Translations under genes and position numbers: made by a program
Shown: piece after piece, positions 28,338 through 35,505 of the stretch
Layout of the letters: every line of letters starts with the position of its first letter
Numbering within the stretch: the stretch's first letter is position 1
NCBI GenBank assembly: GCA_029959285.1
Contig: JASCOE010000002.1
Span: 248,001 to 312,000, forward strand
DNA: 64,000 bases
Direction of reading: 5' to 3'
Source: Flavobacteriaceae bacterium PS02337
GTDB taxonomy: Bacteria > Bacteroidota > Bacteroidia > Flavobacteriales > Flavobacteriaceae
Notes under the pieces: model-generated
The model's database searches: none
Told to the model about the DNA's origin: nothing
Seen by the model: only the letters and a program-made list of their open reading frames with translations

Positions 28338-28542
28338 TAAGCTTCTGAGATTCTAAGATGCTAAGGTTCTAAGATTTTTTATTCCGATAAATCGGAAATA
28401 GATAGTAAAACTTAAATCATTATCTCAATCTTAATCAAAAAAGAGACTTTTTTACATTAGTAAAAAAGTCTCTTTTGCTATATAAAAGTTCGAAGAACTT
28501 TAAAAAATCTCAGAATCTCAGAACCTTAGTCCCTCAGAACCT
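28338..28542. repeat. Octameric repeat inverted pair around a bidirectional terminator
   Basis: 28338-28380 (TTCTAAG-type units) and 28502-28542 (reverse complement units) flank a small hairpin CCGATaaATCGG and a strong hairpin at 28437-28476 (AAAAGAGACTTTTTTAC with its complement). The latter can terminate transcription from both sides. There is no gene in this stretch. Confidence 0.6.
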
Positions 28543-29874
28543 TTAATTATAATTTTGATAAAGCGGCAACTTCAAACCAGCGTAAATATTACAGCCTTTA
28601 GAAGTGTTTGAAAGCAAATTAGTAAAAAGAGTTCCAGAACCAATAAATATCGGACCCGCTCTGAAACCTGCTCCAATTTGCGTTCCGCTGTATTCCATGT
28701 ACGTAACAGGAAGGTAGAAACTAAATTGTCTGGTTTCGTATCTTGGTGTAAAAGTAACCGAATTGGCGATTGAAGTTCCGTTTACTTTTTTTGAATCTAC
28801 TAAACTCAAATCAGCGCTTAAATTCAAATAAAATCTTTGATTGATATTCCAGTCGAAATTAGTGTGCAATGCCGTTGGAAGATTTGCCTTTACTCCTTTT
28901 CTTGAAGATATTTTAGTATAGTTTGAATTAAAAAATTCGAAAATATTATCAGCACTTTTAATATCGTCTTGCGTTACTCTTCCGTTTAGATCGTATGTAT
29001 TTTCGATAACATTTTTATAATTCAAACTTCCGATATCAGTTATCGAAGCCGCAGCTTTAAACTTATAACGGTTTCCCATACAAGAGTGGCAATTGGTACG
29101 ATATTCATACGTAAAACCTAAGTCAACGCCTACTCCAGCCGAACCTGCATCAAATTTCGGATCTTCGCCGTTATCGTAATCGTAACTTGCTGCTGTGCTT
29201 AAAGTTCCTGTAGAATAATATTCGCTAAACTCTGGATTCACATTATTTCTGTTGAATGCTACAGAAATATTATTTCCGTGAACATAACCGTTTACTCCTG
29301 CCATTAAGTATTTTACGGTAATTCCACCTTTCACAAAATGATCGTCACGATCTAACAAAACCGTTGCATAACTCGCTCCAATTTCTGCCCAAGAATTCGT
29401 AACTCCATTTGGGTTTCCGCCTTGAATTAAAAAACTGTTTGTAAAATCGGTGTCTTTGTTTACTTCATCGACAAGCTGACCATTTACGTCAACAAGATTC
29501 GTAACGCTCCTTACGCGCGAAAAAAGCGCAACACTATGTACAGGCGTAATATTCAACATAAACGAAGGCCCTAAAATATCGACATTTAGATTTCCTCTGT
29601 TATTCGATTTAAAGTTTTTCTTTGCCTCGGTATCCAAATCGTAACCGCCGTCTAAAATGCTGCCAAAATTAACGCCGTACAAATCATTTTGTCCCGTTCC
29701 GCTTGCAGAAAAAAGCGTAATATCGGCTCTGTACTTAGAATCTACAATTACCGACGGATTAAACAAAGCCGATTGGATTCCGGCATAATTGTCATCTCTA
29801 AATCCAAAATACGATTGCGATCGCGCATAAAAAAAGCTTCCAAAGAAGCATAATAAAAGTAAAGTTTTCTTCAT
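28543..29874 (-). CDS. DUF5723 family outer-membrane protein
   Basis: A 443-residue protein with a signal peptide (cleavage near ARSQ). FRDDNYAGIQSALFNPSVIVDSKYRADI is the characteristic start of the Bacteroidota DUF5723 family, predicted to fold as a barrel in the outer membrane. A short cysteine pair CHSCMGNRY is near residue 265. The function of the family is not established. It is monocistronic. Confidence 0.85.
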   Translation of the reverse strand: MKKTLLLLCFFGSFFYARSQSYFGFRDDNYAGIQSALFNPSVIVDSKYRADITLFSASGTGQNDLYGVNFGSILDGGYDLDTEAKKNFKSNNRGNLNVDILGPSFMLNITPVHSVALFSRVRSVTNLVDVNGQLVDEVNKDTDFTNSFLIQGGNPNGVTNSWAEIGASYATVLLDRDDHFVKGGITVKYLMAGVNGYVHGNNISVAFNRNNVNPEFSEYYSTGTLSTAASYDYDNGEDPKFDAGSAGVGVDLGFTYEYRTNCHSCMGNRYKFKAAASITDIGSLNYKNVIENTYDLNGRVTQDDIKSADNIFEFFNSNYTKISSRKGVKANLPTALHTNFDWNINQRFYLNLSADLSLVDSKKVNGTSIANSVTFTPRYETRQFSFYLPVTYMEYSGTQIGAGFRAGPIFIGSGTLFTNLLSNTSKGCNIYAGLKLPLYQNYN

Positions 29875-29930
29875 AGATTAAATTAATTGGTTGTTTTTGG
29901 TCTGGCAAATATGAGGCAAAAAAAATCAAA

Positions 29931-29969
29931 AAAAAACTTAACGAATTATGAATTCGTTAAGTTTTTTTT
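29931..29969. terminator. Palindromic terminator-like hairpin
   Basis: AAAACTTAACGAATT and AATTCGTTAAGTTTT form a perfect 15-bp stem with an ATG loop and A/T tails on both sides. It lies between the divergent start of the DUF5723 gene and the end of prfA. The octameric repeats at 29969-30010 and 30149-30186 surround it. Confidence 0.7.
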
Positions 29970-30186
29970 CTAAGGTTCTGAGTTGCTAAGATTCTAAGAC
30001 ACTAAGTTTTAGAGCAGTCTTATAAATCTTACTTCACAAGATTACGGTGTATTATTTATCTTAAAATAAATTAATAAGGTTCTGATATTAAAACAAAAAA
30101 AGCCGAACTAAAAGTTCGGCTTAAATATAATTATGTTCAAAGCAAAAAACTTAGAACCTTAGCATCTTAGAATCTCAGAAACTTTT
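29969..30186. repeat. Octameric repeat inverted pair downstream of prfA
   Basis: 29969-30010 and 30149-30186 contain TTCTAAG-type units in opposite orientation. The prfA terminator lies between them. Confidence 0.55.
30095..30122 (-). terminator. Terminator of prfA
   Basis: AAGCCGAACTTTTAGTTCGGCTT in minus-strand reading is followed by a T-run. Confidence 0.85.
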
Positions 30187-30191
30187 AAAAG

Positions 30192-31268
30192 TTAGTAAAC
30201 TTCAGAAGCTTCTTTCAATTTCTCCATATTATTCACTAATTGAAGCTCAGCCACAATTTTCTGAATATCACCATTCATGATGTTTCCTAAATCGTAAAGT
30301 GTCAAACCAACTCTGTGATCGGTTACACGACCTTGAGCGTAGTTGTACGTACGAATTTTAGCCGAACGGTCACCAGAACTTACTTGCGAACTACGTTTAG
30401 AAGCATCTTCTTCTTGTTTTTTCGCCAATTCCATTTCGTACAAACGAGAACGTAATACGATTAAGGCTTTGTCTTTATTTTTATGTTGCGATTTCTGATC
30501 CTGACATTGCGCCACCAATCCAGTTGGAATGTGCGTTAAACGTACAGCCGATTTCGTCGTATTTACCGATTGTCCTCCAGGTCCAGACGAACAGAAGAAA
30601 TCTACACGAACCTCATTCATATCAATTTGAACATCAAACTCTTCCGCTTCTGGTAAAACCATAACCGTTGCAGCCGATGTATGCACACGACCTTGCGTTT
30701 CAGTTTGCGGAACACGTTGTACACGGTGTACACCAGCTTCAAACTTCAACGTTCCGTATACATCTTCTCCCGAAACCTCAAAAATTACCTCTTTAAAACC
30801 TCCAGAAGTACCTTCGTTCATATCTACCACAGAAGTTCTCCAACCTTGCGATTCGCAATACTTCGTATACATTCTAAATAAATCTCCTGCAAAAATACTC
30901 GCTTCATCTCCACCCGTTCCCGCGCGAATCTCCACCATAACGTTTTTAGCATCTTCAGGATCTTTAGGAATCAACATAAATTTGATTTCCTCCTCAAGTT
31001 GAGGCAAGCGTTCTTTTGCTTCATCCAATTGCATTTTAGCCATTTCGGTCATATCTGCATCGCTTCCGTCTGCAATAATTTCGTTGGCCTCATCAATATT
31101 GGCTAAAACAAGAATGTATTCTTCTCTCTTATCAACCAAAGCTTTTATGCTTTTATATTCTTGGTTGAGCTGCACATAACGTTTTTGATCTGCAATAACA
31201 TCCGGCTGAATAATCAAATCCGAAATCTCATCAAAACGCTGCTTTACATATTGAAGTCTATCTAACAT
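30192..31268 (-). CDS. prfA: Peptide chain release factor 1
   Basis: A 358-residue RF1 that releases peptides at UAA and UAG. The GGQ motif is in [20 protein letters not shown], and the stop-codon-reading tripeptide region is [17 protein letters not shown] (PxT type). The length and domains are normal. It is cytoplasmic and binds the ribosomal A site. Its presence fits efficient termination at the TAA in the interrupted TonB receptor gene of this window. Confidence 0.96.
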
Positions 31269-31292
31269 TTTCTTTTTCCTTTATTTGGACTG

Positions 31293-31300
31293 CAAAATTA
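31293..31300 (-). promoter_or_regulatory. Probable -7 box of prfA
   Basis: The minus strand reads TAATTTTG, 25-32 bases upstream of the prfA ATG. Confidence 0.5.
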
Positions 31301-31468
31301 CAAAATATTTGTGGAAAATTCTACTATTGATTTTTTGTGTTTTTTGAGGAGAGTTTTGATAGCTTTTGTTTTTGAAAAACAGGGGTTTTTACTTGGTATT
31401 GGATTTGATTTTTATGCGATGTTTGTTTAGTTTAAATTATCAATTGTAATTTAATCTTTTTATAACAG

Positions 31469-31484
31469 TTACGGTTTCCCGTAA
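31469..31484. promoter_or_regulatory. Palindrome upstream of the pentapeptide/NACHT operon
   Basis: TTACGG-TTTC-CCGTAA is a perfect 6-bp inverted repeat 21 bases before the TATATTTG box (31506-31513), in the place where a -33 element or operator would be. It may bind a repressor or activator of the operon. The rest of 31301-31606 is AT-rich without a gene. Confidence 0.4.
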
Positions 31485-31505
31485 TTTAATTATTTTAAAT
31501 CAAAC

Positions 31506-31513
31506 TATATTTG
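31506..31513 (+). promoter_or_regulatory. Probable -7 box of the pentapeptide/NACHT operon
   Basis: TATATTTG matches TAnnTTTG. It would leave an untranslated leader of about 85 bases. Confidence 0.5.
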
Positions 31514-31606
31514 TAGTTTATACATTACTTAACAACATTGAAATCTAAGCAAATTGAGATAAATTTTTAAATACTAACGATAAAAATAACTTTAAAATAA
31601 AATTGC

Positions 31607-32467
31607 GTGATAAAAAAAATAGATAAAATTAAAATTATAGGAATTCTTTTTTTATTGACAGGAATTGGATTAGTTTTTTTTCATAAATATCCTTCAAATG
31701 CGCCATACCATGTATTAATCGGAAACTTATATTCCAATTTTTGTGCTGAATTTATTAGTATTGCTATAACTATACTTTTAATTGATCATTTATATGAAAT
31801 TAAAGAAAAGAAAAGTCTAAAATCACGGCTAATACGCGAATTAGGTAGTGAAGAAAGAAGTTTAACATCAAAAGCCTTAAAAGAATTACGCGAAAATAAT
31901 TGGTTGCAAGATGGTTCTCTAAAAAATGCAGACCTGCAAAATGCAAATCTTAGTAATTTAGATTTGTCAAATGCAAATTTAGAAAATGTAAATTTAACAA
32001 ATGCGAATTTAGTAAATAGTAATCTTTCAAAAGCAAATTTAAATAAATCTATTTTAACTAGTTGTAAAATGTTAGGTGCAAAACTTGAAAATACAAATCT
32101 TAGTAATTCTACAATTCATAGCGCAAATTTCCAAGAAGCAATACTGAATAAAATTATAGCTTCAAATGTAGATTTTATGAATTGTAATATGGATGTAATG
32201 GAAATGGTTGATTCAAATTTTACTCAATGTAAATTTGAAGATGTTAATTTTACACAAAGTAACTTATCAAGATCAAAATTTATTTCTTGTAATTTTTTAA
32301 GAGCAAAAGTTCATAGCACTAACATTAAAGATTCATCATTTGAAAGATGCGATATTAACCATCTAACAGATTGGCGATACTTAGAAAACAGATTACCAAA
32401 TAGCTTTTTAGCTCCTACAAATGTACCTGCTGAATTCTTAGAATTTCAAAACCTTGTAAATTTATGA
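31607..32467 (+). CDS. Membrane-anchored pentapeptide-repeat protein
   Basis: A 286-residue protein beginning with GTG. Two hydrophobic segments (about 9-25 and 43-62) should place the N-terminus in the inner membrane. A charged linker leads to about 25 pentapeptide repeats (residues 100-260) of the A(N/D)LxN type, for example LQNANLSNLDLSNANLENVN, which fold as a right-handed quadrilateral helix. The C-terminal 25 residues leave the repeat. The stop codon overlaps the start of the NACHT gene (ATGA), so the two are translationally coupled. Pentapeptide helices often mimic nucleic acid or mediate protein contacts; here a membrane-bound partner or effector of the NACHT NTPase is an inference. 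Confidence 0.85.
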   Translation: MIKKIDKIKIIGILFLLTGIGLVFFHKYPSNAPYHVLIGNLYSNFCAEFISIAITILLIDHLYEIKEKKSLKSRLIRELGSEERSLTSKALKELRENNWLQDGSLKNADLQNANLSNLDLSNANLENVNLTNANLVNSNLSKANLNKSILTSCKMLGAKLENTNLSNSTIHSANFQEAILNKIIASNVDFMNCNMDVMEMVDSNFTQCKFEDVNFTQSNLSRSKFISCNFLRAKVHSTNIKDSSFERCDINHLTDWRYLENRLPNSFLAPTNVPAEFLEFQNLVNL

Positions 32468-33948
32468 TACAGTATACCATTGATCAAATTTTCAATTCAA
32501 TTTCTTCAACAATTTTACAAGAATCTACAAAATGGAAACTGAAAGAAGAGATACAGTCTTATGTAAGTAATACTTATGAAAAATTTAGACTTACCAAAAA
32601 TCTTCTATTTAGAAATGAACCGATTGATTTTCTTCGCAATTATATTCCTATTACATTAACAATTAATCAAAAAAGAATTCGTCAAAAAAATCCAATGGAT
32701 CTTTTCGATGAATATAATAAAATTGCAATACTGGGAAATGCTGGGAGTGGAAAAACTACTTTCTTAAAATTTCTAACAATTAGTTGTATAAATCGAGAAG
32801 AATATATTCCAGTATATGTAGAACTTAGATTATTTAATATTGAAAATATAGATTTTGAAAGTTTTATCACTCGAATTATCAGCAACGAATCGCGAGATAA
32901 AGTTATTGAACTCTTTAAAAAAGGAAATTTTTTATTTCTATTTGATGGTTTTGATGAAATTAATTATAGTGAAGGGTCAAATGTTATAAATCAAATTCAA
33001 AATTTTATATCTAATTTTAACAATAATCTTTTTGTAATATCATCCAGACCAGGAACAAATGTAGAAAGTTTAAATGAATTTCATGTCTGTGAAATAGCTC
33101 CACTTTCTGAAATAGATGTAATGTTCTATATTGAACAACTCAATTTGTCTAATAGTAAGAAGGAAATTTTTTTCCAATCTATTGAAGATGATGATTATTT
33201 CCATCAATACTTGACTACACCTCTATTTCTATCAATCTATATTAATTACATTATAAATCATAGTGAAACAAATTTCCCTAAAAATAAATCAATTTTTTTT
33301 AGAAATATTATTGATACACTTTTTTCAAAACACGATGCAGTTTCAAAATTAGGATTTGTACGACCAAAACTTTCTGGACTTAATAAAGATGAATTGGAAA
33401 GAGTTGCAACAATTTTAGCTTTTAGAGGATTAATAACTGGACAAAATACCTTTTCAAAAGATATTTTAATAAAAGAATTAGAATTAATTAAACGCAATCA
33501 AATTTTAGAATTTGAAAATGACAAACTAATTTATGATTTAACAATAACGGTTAATGTATTAGTTGTCAATGGCGATTTTTACTCATTTGTGCATATACTT
33601 ATATTAGAATATTTAGCTGCATTATTTATATCCAGATTACCGCAAACAGAAAAAAGCCTTTTTTATAATAGAATTTTAGGAGAGGAAAAATTATCCTTAA
33701 GCTCTAGTTTGTTAAATTTTCTTTCTGAGTTAGATTTCCAAATGTTGATAAAAGACTTCATTATTCCAAAATTGGAAAATTATTCGTTTCCTAATACACA
33801 TCGACCATCGGACTTGTTAATTATAGAATTATTGGAAAATAAGTTTGAATTTACTTCAAAATATGGCTATAGAGATTTTGTTGCTAGATTAAAAAAAGAA
33901 TTCAGAATTCAATCAGATAATGATTTAGGCGAATTATTTTCTACTTAA
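32464..33948 (+). CDS. NACHT-domain NTPase (STAND family)
   Basis: A 494-residue protein. After about 85 N-terminal residues comes a NACHT NTPase: Walker A LGNAGSGKTTF (90-100), Walker B LFLFDGFDEI (about 157-166), then VISSRPG. A helical region follows, including FYSFVHILILEYLAALF, a segment like the winged-helix end of NACHT modules. The last ~90 residues form a short C-terminal region with no repeats, so any sensor is small, as in the short bacterial NACHT proteins. Bacterial NACHT proteins include antiphage systems; whether this one is such a system is not shown. It is coupled to the membrane pentapeptide protein. The DNA is noticeably AT-rich. Confidence 0.85.
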   Translation: MIQYTIDQIFNSISSTILQESTKWKLKEEIQSYVSNTYEKFRLTKNLLFRNEPIDFLRNYIPITLTINQKRIRQKNPMDLFDEYNKIAILGNAGSGKTTFLKFLTISCINREEYIPVYVELRLFNIENIDFESFITRIISNESRDKVIELFKKGNFLFLFDGFDEINYSEGSNVINQIQNFISNFNNNLFVISSRPGTNVESLNEFHVCEIAPLSEIDVMFYIEQLNLSNSKKEIFFQSIEDDDYFHQYLTTPLFLSIYINYIINHSETNFPKNKSIFFRNIIDTLFSKHDAVSKLGFVRPKLSGLNKDELERVATILAFRGLITGQNTFSKDILIKELELIKRNQILEFENDKLIYDLTITVNVLVVNGDFYSFVHILILEYLAALFISRLPQTEKSLFYNRILGEEKLSLSSSLLNFLSELDFQMLIKDFIIPKLENYSFPNTHRPSDLLIIELLENKFEFTSKYGYRDFVARLKKEFRIQSDNDLGELFST

Positions 33949-33952
33949 TCCT

Positions 33953-33966
33953 CGCGCTAGCAGGGA
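33953..33966. repeat. Half repeat CGCGCTAGCAGGGA
   Basis: This sequence matches the arm of the GCTAGC repeat (2782-2849) and is complementary in its AGCAGGGA part to TCCCTGCT at 34591-34598, on the other side of the next gene. Confidence 0.55.
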
Positions 33967-34015
33967 GAGAACATTACAAAATATTAAAATTAGCTACAAA
34001 ACTAATAAATGAAAC

Positions 34016-34588
34016 ATGGATATTTTAAAATTATATCAAGCTAAATGGCAACAAGAAGTTTATAATGAATTAGAAAATAAAAAATATACAAAATGGATTA
34101 ATTATAATGTTTTGTATAGGAGACAAAATCATATTGTTCATAAAAAAATAAATAAAATTGGTGAATTTGTTCTTGGGATAAAACACATAGACGCAATTGA
34201 TGATGAAATTTTTAAAAAATTAAATGATATACTATTATTAAATAGTAAAATTAAAAATTTCACTTCTACTTGTGACGAATTTTCTCTTTTCAACGAATAT
34301 GAAGAAATTGAAAAAGCTAGAGCTTCTAAGATGGGCTTTGGATATAAATTTAATGATTTACAAATAAATACAGATTTAGAAAACATTGTTAAACTAGAAA
34401 CTAGAGTTTTCTTTACAGATGCAAAAAATGTTAAAAACAGTGTTATTTACGATCTTCCAACTATATTAAACTTAAATTTACTAGGAGGCATTCCAACACT
34501 AAACAGAGAACCTTTCATGAGAATTAGTGAAGCTGAAAAAGTTATAGCGGAATATTGGAAAGATAGAGAAGATAATTTTTCGCTATAA
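34016..34588 (+). CDS. Hypothetical protein downstream of the NACHT gene
   Basis: A 190-residue soluble-looking protein without signal peptide or membrane segment; Lys-, Asn- and Ile-rich, with WINYNVLYRRQNHIVHKKIN near the N-terminus and IPTLNREPFMRISEAEKVIA near the C-terminus. I recognise no family. It lies 67 bases after the NACHT gene and is bracketed by half repeats with complementary cores. It could be a third component of the module or an unrelated passenger gene. Confidence 0.65.
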   Translation: MDILKLYQAKWQQEVYNELENKKYTKWINYNVLYRRQNHIVHKKINKIGEFVLGIKHIDAIDDEIFKKLNDILLLNSKIKNFTSTCDEFSLFNEYEEIEKARASKMGFGYKFNDLQINTDLENIVKLETRVFFTDAKNVKNSVIYDLPTILNLNLLGGIPTLNREPFMRISEAEKVIAEYWKDREDNFSL

Positions 34589-34675
34589 GTTTCCCTGCTA
34601 GAGCTAGCATACCTCTTGTGAATGTAACCCTGTAGCGCGGATTTGCAATCCGTGCCCGCAACAATAAGACACAAC
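34589..34675. repeat. Half repeats downstream of the hypothetical gene
   Basis: TCCCTGCTAGAGC (34591-34603) is the complement of the half repeat at 33953-33966. From 34632 on, TAGCGCGGATTTGCAATCCG and the following CCCGCAACAATAAGACA match the arm of the 31-bp inverted repeat at 35359-35505 with one base changed. Confidence 0.6.
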
Positions 34676-34775: not shown

Positions 34776-35363
34776 ATGAACCTAGAAAACCATCCCTTCT
34801 TCAAAAAATACAAAATTGTCAAAATTATAGTATTATTTCATTTGTTTGTTTCTCTCTTTATTTTTATTTCAGGATTAGTTGGTGGTTATAACAATGGGGA
34901 TCCTTTGCTAGGTTTGAAAAAACCTTTTGAAAATTATACCGCATTGTCTAATCCCGAAAAATATTTAAAAAGTGATTTTTTTGTAGTCGATACTGCATTT
35001 ATTGAAGAAACTTCAGGCAGAAAACCCTCTGACACAAAATCAAAATACACCGTAATTAGAGGTAATTTATTGCATTCGAACATCAAAAAAGAAATAATTT
35101 GGCAGGGCAACAATATTTATACATTTTATAAAGGAAGACTTGCCCTTAACAACGATAATTTCAATTACGTCTATACCCGAAAAGCAAAATCTATCAAAGT
35201 ATGGAGAAACAAACTTAATGACGCACTTTTTGTAGACAACAAAAAGCATATGGAAGATCAAAAGTTTAACGCTGTTAGTCATTTATACATTCAATTTTCA
35301 CTTCTCATATTGCCTATAGTTTTGCTCATTTTAAAAAAAAAATCAGAAGCAGAACTCCGATAG
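34776..35363 (+). CDS. Hypothetical membrane protein
   Basis: A 195-residue protein with two transmembrane segments, near the N-terminus (about 16-36, IIVLFHLFVSLFIFISGLVG) and at the C-terminus (about 168-187, FSLLILPIVLLIL). Between them is an extracytoplasmic domain of about 130 residues. No family is recognised. The last codons and stop (ELR, TAG) lie inside the left arm of a 31-bp inverted repeat, so the C-terminus may have been set by insertion of that repeat. Confidence 0.65.
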   Translation: MNLENHPFFKKYKIVKIIVLFHLFVSLFIFISGLVGGYNNGDPLLGLKKPFENYTALSNPEKYLKSDFFVVDTAFIEETSGRKPSDTKSKYTVIRGNLLHSNIKKEIIWQGNNIYTFYKGRLALNNDNFNYVYTRKAKSIKVWRNKLNDALFVDNKKHMEDQKFNAVSHLYIQFSLLILPIVLLILKKKSEAELR

Positions 35364-35505
35364 CGCGGATTTGTAATCCGTGCCCGCAACAATAAGACAT
35401 AATAAAAATCTTTAAAAGTAAAAGCTACAAAATCATGTAACTTTTGTTTTTATTACAAATGTATAGACCAATCTTTGCGGGCACGGATTACAAATCCGCG
35501 CTATC
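35359..35505. repeat. 31-bp perfect inverted repeat with hairpin arms
   Basis: 35359-35389 and 35475-35505 are exact complements, starting GATAGCGCGGATTTGTAATC. Each arm carries a small GGATT...AATCC hairpin, and the 85-base spacer has a terminator-like hairpin with a T tail (about 35418-35454). A near copy of one arm is at 34632-34675. Confidence 0.8.

Follow-up and report, generated by a model that had tools for sequence, protein, structure and literature searches.

A rare gene pair for a NACHT NTPase and a membrane pentapeptide-repeat protein, a candidate split antiphage system in Flavobacteriaceae

The stretch of DNA analysed here (64,000 nucleotides of contig JASCOE010000002.1 from Flavobacteriaceae bacterium PS02337, called the window below) carries two coupled genes on the + strand: one for a membrane protein with pentapeptide repeats (31607-32467; 286 amino acids, GTG start, two transmembrane (2TM) helices) and one for a NACHT NTPase (32464-33948; 494 amino acids), which overlap by an ATGA start-stop motif (32464-32467, +). 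It is probably an uncommon, two-part form of an immune switch of a kind already known in bacteria. More specifically, we give about an even chance to its being a two-gene, split antiphage system of the signal transduction ATPase with numerous domains (STAND) type, similar to the nucleotide-binding leucine-rich-repeat (LRR) receptors (NLRs), in which the NACHT protein would serve as the switch that sets a 2TM beta-helix partner at the membrane in action. We favour this reading because no enzymatic effector or repeat sensor was recognised in the NACHT protein and the partner brings both a membrane segment and a solenoid. The gene order, the overlap and the 494-residue NACHT protein described in an earlier note on this DNA agree with the open reading frames (ORFs) at 31607-32467, 32464-33948 and 34016-34588, and both members of the pair were also assigned with Pfam. 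The AT-richness described there was likewise seen, the G+C content being 24.8-25.7% in the 1-kb segments of 31501-34500 versus 34-38% in those of 28501-31500, just upstream.

A gene pair shared by two genera

An alignment-based scan of species genomes with the NACHT protein gave at least 587 stretches and at least 181 relatives, of which the best 80 loci were kept. Among these best 80, a pentapeptide ORF was detected by repeat count only in Tenacibaculum aiptasiae (L015), where the NACHT protein is 56% identical end to end to that of the window and the membrane partner, encoded directly upstream, is 58% identical. The two proteins (287 and 495 amino acids) are encoded in the same order and orientation as in the window and with the identical ATGA overlap, and the flanks of the T. 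aiptasiae pair have no DNA match to the window from 29.5 to 42 kb outside the pair. This separate co-occurrence with the same overlap supports the coupling of the membrane protein and the NACHT protein that had been proposed from the window alone. A laxer repeat count over 157 loci added one locus (L144) to four copies of the window locus and three of the Tenacibaculum locus.

The gene pair is rare. Searches for the partner's N-terminus matched one genome each among 300 of the genus, 397 of the family and 97 of the Tenacibaculum genus group, and a search for the entire partner matched one among 199 of the family; each of these single matches was a genome already known to hold the pair. NACHT relatives, counting the window's own protein, turned up in 5 of 300 genomes of the genus and 5 of 395 of the phylum. 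Several of the genome searches scored the first few candidates per genome, so that these counts are lower bounds. The alternative raised in the earlier note, that the pair belongs to the core genes of all Flavobacterium, does not agree with this distribution. Single-sequence scans with the NACHT protein found nothing in genome or viral contigs; it was the alignment-based scan that matched genomes. Viral contigs held three distant NACHT relatives and none of the membrane protein, and phage records held two NACHT matches. Among plasmids, 184 records had distant NACHT matches; the membrane protein was unmatched there at 1e-5, and its N-terminus gave five chance-level matches (E 4-8) at E <= 10. 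A conserved upstream partner was also sought at other bacterial NACHT (bNACHT) loci, and among 13 upstream ORFs likeness was seen only between L043 and L044, between L050 and L060 and, weakly, between L051 and L057.

Each of the two genomes encodes a second NACHT protein, in the window's genome at G000:C11:707484-707876 (L154; open frame of 732 amino acids) and in T. aiptasiae as a distant protein (L126).

A NACHT core with a shortened C-terminus

The NACHT domain was matched by PF05729 (E 7.7e-9; 36 bits versus a cut-off of 26.7). The Walker A motif GNAGSGKTT (32734-32760, +; residues 91-99) and the Walker B motif FDGFDE (32941-32958, +; residues 160-165) can be read in the sequence, and G94, G96, K97, D161, G162, D164 and E165 are invariant in a 47-sequence alignment. 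Both motifs are intact, as had been noted. The protein consists of a short helical N-terminus, a core resembling the succession nucleotide-binding domain, helical domain 1, winged-helix domain and helical domain 2 (NBD-HD1-WHD-HD2), and a short tail. The 96 residues before K97 had no domain match in Pfam or NCBIfam, and two helices are predicted there by the model. The predicted model aligns to residues 95-580 of NLRC4, a span that, from the domain limits, presumably leaves out CARD and LRR. The alignment with NLRC4 and the conserved H377 suggest that the HD1-winged helix-HD2 part follows the NTPase. Pfam found no repeat family in the 494 residues, so no C-terminal LRR or other array is present in cis, and no enzymatic effector domain was found. 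Against PADLOC-DB 2.0.0, whose catalogue includes AVAST among other systems, the protein gave just weak matches (E 0.0068 and 0.021).

Two features set the NACHT proteins of the pair apart from their relatives. The first is the winged-helix motif, HILILEY in the window (33592-33612, +; residues 377-383) and H[RK][ST]xQEY or near in the relatives by column counts. The position of H377 is His in 45 of 45 aligned relatives, and HIL replaces H[RK][ST] in the two pair members, a change seen in none of 78 relatives. The second is the C-terminus, which ends in a tail (33784-33945, +; residues 441-494) that is variable and then contains a conserved DNxLGELFS. The pair members have 112-113 residues after E382, versus 151-268 in 45 aligned relatives that were hand-picked from 79 other loci, a choice that excluded fragments, long fusions and others. 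When all 80 loci were recounted, the position lay in one open frame in 79, and 77 of the 78 others (121-268 residues) were longer than the pair members, the sole shorter one being L081, whose ORF is cut short (28 residues). Scored with a profile built from the C-terminal region of the relatives, the two pair members reached 1.4 and 4.7 bits from residue 440 onward, and of seven left-out relatives six scored 8.8-22.8 bits and the seventh -3.4. On the question of a short NACHT-associated C-terminal (SNaCT) domain, a criterion of clade 14 of the bNACHT proteins, the same profile gave the window protein 1.4 bits over residues 440-494 and 28.4 bits over residues 392-494. As judged by residue counts and profile scores, these results show that the C-terminus of the pair's NACHT protein is shortened and altered relative to its relatives.

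A two-helix partner with a pentapeptide solenoid

The repeats of the membrane protein were matched by PF13599 (E 9.2e-26) and PF00805 (E 1.1e-25), both over the Pfam cut-off. By repeat count, approximately 30 consecutive five-residue units occupy residues 104-253 (31916-32365, +), with a weaker fit toward the C-terminus, and should form a beta-helix that is presumably cytoplasmic. Hydropathy and the model place a first membrane helix at about residues 10-28 (31634-31690, +) and a second at about residues 44-63 (31736-31795, +), whose charged, helical continuation reaches about residue 80. The two hydrophobic stretches start near residues 5 and 41 in the hydropathy profile, and helices 2-25 and 35-80 are predicted in an AlphaFold model built from a two-row alignment (best predicted local distance difference test score 77.6; the other four models 46.8-64.9). 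The two helices of the earlier description are thus retained, and the number of repeats, given there as about 25, is revised to about 30. The loop that joins the helices is short (about 15-20 residues in hydropathy and model), and the N-terminal KK..K.K ahead of helix 1 suggests, from positive-inside reasoning, an N-in topology. No match to the membrane protein was found in PADLOC-DB 2.0.0 at E <= 0.1. Between the pair members most repeats are 47-50% conserved per 30-residue segment (one 73%), and the linker is 73-77% conserved.

Genomic neighbourhood

In T. aiptasiae the pair begins 116 bases behind a Septu-type operon, for which PADLOC identified PtuA (3.4e-133) and PtuB (4.5e-72). In the window the neighbours of the pair are prfA and ordinary genes. 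We compared the prfA-adjacent site in 6 of the 12 same-genus genomes that had a prfA match. The prfA flank was matched in all six and the right flank (about 35.5 kb) in L118 and L120; in these two, the exchanged part thus lies between DNA that matches the window to its left and to its right. Different cassettes, which we read as defence-type, stand at the site in three of the six close relatives. The cassette of L118 (2646-5951) encodes an AAA_15 ATPase related to the NsnB, PDC-M55A and HEC-03B models together with a 286-amino-acid partner; that of L119 (2683-9653) a DUF4365-like protein and a PIN_12 protein; and that of L120 (2729-9069) a caspase C14 protein, a SocA/Panacea ORF and others. 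For L119 and L120 the defence-type assignment is our own reading. L122 has a RusA-domain ORF and one further ORF at the site, and no such cassette was seen at the prfA site in the short contig-end pieces L121 and L123. Because different cassettes stand there in relatives, the prfA-adjacent site appears to be variable and at times to hold defence-like cassettes, which is suggestive of a hotspot. The adjacent PtuA/PtuB operon in T. aiptasiae, the variable site beside prfA and the likeness to a bNACHT01-like protein support the antiphage role proposed in the earlier note.

How the pair may work

In the split system that we favour, the NACHT protein, which may act through the membrane protein or rely on it for sensing, would be the nucleotide switch: its bare NBD-HD1-WHD-HD2 core would rest with ADP and, upon infection, swap to ATP and oligomerise. 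The effector and repeat-sensor roles would have moved to the partner, with its two inner-membrane helices in the effector position and its cytoplasmic pentapeptide beta-helix, docking the NACHT protein, in the position of the solenoid. NACHT oligomers would then cluster the 2TM partners, and permeabilisation or depolarisation of the membrane would lead to abortive infection. The physical interaction, the oligomerisation, the action on the membrane and the defence itself are putative. In a bolder form, which we put forward only tentatively, effector and solenoid would have moved jointly to one trans-encoded membrane protein, and NACHT oligomers would gather its subunits, by way of their solenoids, into a membrane pore, a bacterial two-gene counterpart of the resistosome. 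If this pore form is true, the splitting of an NLR would have left its trace in two features, the missing C-terminal region that relatives have and the rewired winged-helix motif.

Several observations weigh against the split system. Only two pair members were found, too few to test co-evolution, and 79 of the best 80 NACHT loci among the 181 relatives have no pentapeptide gene nearby. The NACHT protein could act alone, since single-gene relatives are far commoner and clade 14 of the bNACHT proteins works without a discernible effector. No search tied the 2TM segment to a known pore, and the repeats, being less conserved than the linker, could equally be those of a sensor or of an effector. 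As for the surroundings, the PtuA and PtuB models of NCBIfam, built for retron Ec78, match the Tenacibaculum genes below cut-off only; PADLOC, at the thresholds applied, matched none of 12 other ORFs of the window, which has 54 ORFs of >= 100 amino acids; and the cassettes of L119 and L120 had no PADLOC match, the DUF4365 match in L119 being under the Pfam cut-off.

The main rival explanation is that the partner is a sensor or anchor, which watches the inner membrane for phage injection or membrane stress and releases or recruits a NACHT protein acting by the clade-14 route. We consider it less probable than the split system, with several arguments on its side: proteins of clade 14 give protection with no effector domain discernible (PMC12169576, in excerpt), the NACHT protein is without its relatives' common C-terminal region, as would be expected if sensing had shifted to the partner, and another Bacteroidota NACHT protein (L158) carries pentapeptide repeats in fusion, at its sensor end. 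Most repeats are less conserved than the linker, as a sensing surface might be, which fits this explanation at least as well as the split system. However, the short loop between the helices leaves no evident sensing domain outside. Moreover, effectors with two membrane helices are widespread among other defence systems. Cap15 and 2TMbeta are such effectors (PMC12657230, in the portion available).

It is improbable that the partner instead restrains the NACHT protein, as a guard or antitoxin-like protein, keeping a toxic NTPase at the membrane up to the point when a phage disturbs it. The partner gene comes first and has a start-stop overlap, as with many antitoxins, and defence by release from inhibition is known in Hailong and Panoptes, there via small signals and not a protein (PMC12657230, same portion), but there is no sign of NACHT toxicity here, and the partner is missing from nearly all of the related loci counted above. 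A signalling pair outside defence, for example controlling development, a protease or gyrase with the NACHT protein as regulator, has a low probability as well: HetL and Qnr/MfpA, which have other roles, are among the names of the best pentapeptide matches, but these matches cover the repeats only and are below the NCBIfam cut-offs, and the PtuA/PtuB neighbour in Tenacibaculum, the patchy distribution and the variable site beside prfA speak against it. Finally, the many partnerless NACHT loci would suit a chance neighbourhood of an ordinary bNACHT gene behind an unrelated membrane pentapeptide gene, but this is very improbable because a second genus, in T. aiptasiae L015, holds the same pair in the same order and orientation, with near-equal lengths, the 4-base overlap and 56-58% identity, in unmatched flanks.

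A natural variant that is without the usual C-terminus and has a coupled membrane protein offers a handle on how clade-14 proteins act. The partner is separable by deletion, and therefore sensing and killing could be assigned to the gene products. Pentapeptide beta-helices are best known from gyrase-binding proteins; if the split system is true, this fold gains a possible role as the solenoid of an NLR-like switch.

Flanking gene and repeats

A third gene (34016-34588, +; 190 amino acids, from the ORF list) follows the pair. It could not be assigned to a family with Pfam, NCBIfam or PADLOC at any meaningful score. With its own copies excluded, tblastn gave no match at E <= 1 in the loci searched, and viral contigs and plasmids held no relative; among 89 genus genomes only its own had it. 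It is not beside the Tenacibaculum pair either. We therefore rejected it as a part of the system. The repeats reported to bracket the pair do not do so. The repeat GCGCGGATTTGYAATCCGTGCCCGC, a 25-bp palindromic element resembling repetitive extragenic palindromic (REP) sequences, has three exact copies (34635-34659, 35363-35387 and, on the - strand, 35477-35501), all downstream of the pair, and no copy upstream of it within the window. Its 23-base core (<= 1 mismatch) has three copies in the genome, only at this locus. A second inverted repeat of 16-19 nucleotides, 33951-33966(+)/34592-34607(-), encloses the third gene only, which is perhaps a separate small cassette; the repeats were thus rejected as boundaries of the pair. 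Matches to the REP-like element are clustered at 8091-8200 in L118, and a 199-amino-acid ORF at the prfA site of L119 looks, we assume, like a REP-associated transposase.

Relation to known systems

In the literature searched, outside which most subscription papers lie, including the consulted parts of PMC8195603, PMC9122126, PMC10853773 and PMC12265719, we found no description of a NACHT gene paired with a membrane pentapeptide gene. The closest known proteins are bNACHT proteins, which, clade 14 included, defend against phage (PMC12169576, in excerpt). The relatives are 20-37% identical to the window protein and match it mostly to about residue 440. Like the bNACHT01-like and clade-14 proteins, the window protein has a NACHT core without a discernible effector domain; unlike them, it is shortened and unrecognised past residue 440, its winged-helix motif is altered and it is coupled to a membrane partner gene. 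A gene annotated as bNACHT01-like, also a NACHT relative, lies downstream of virion-type genes in a Vibrio phage record (L007:3761-5551; Vinavirales, 14.8 kb).

Pentapeptide repeats are counted among the superstructure-forming domains of conflict systems (PMC7159879, in the part seen). Hailong HalA (NF051894, PDB 9nyi) is an effector of defence that contains pentapeptide repeats, but only the repeats of the window's membrane protein match it (38.7 bits versus a cut-off of 250). HalA is, we assume, also a membrane protein, and its partner HalB is presumably a nucleotidyltransferase, unlike the NACHT protein; no HalB-type nucleotidyltransferase domain was found among eight neighbouring ORFs scanned with Pfam. 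HalA (9nyi) is not among the listed fold matches of the membrane protein model, which excludes nothing. Septu (PtuA/PtuB) adjoins the T. aiptasiae pair and is otherwise an unrelated system.

A single-chain protein in another Bacteroidota genome (L158:9180-12359) joins a NACHT domain and 24 in-phase pentapeptide units, and because this one genome has such parts in cis, their functional coupling is supported. Unlike the pair, it has 1059 amino acids, a long N-terminal region, C-terminal repeats and, in the same count, no hydrophobic helix. About 4.9 kb from it lies another NACHT ORF (L158:2494-4308), which has two hydrophobic segments at its N-terminus and three more further on.

The window's NACHT protein can be described as a pared-down relative of human inflammasome proteins. 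Compared with the core of the animal proteins NLRC4, NLRP3 and NAIP, it has no CARD or LRR in cis, and the 15% identity comes with a resemblance of the predicted model only. Unlike in a bona fide NLR, the solenoid of the pair is encoded by a separate gene and is not part of the NACHT chain.

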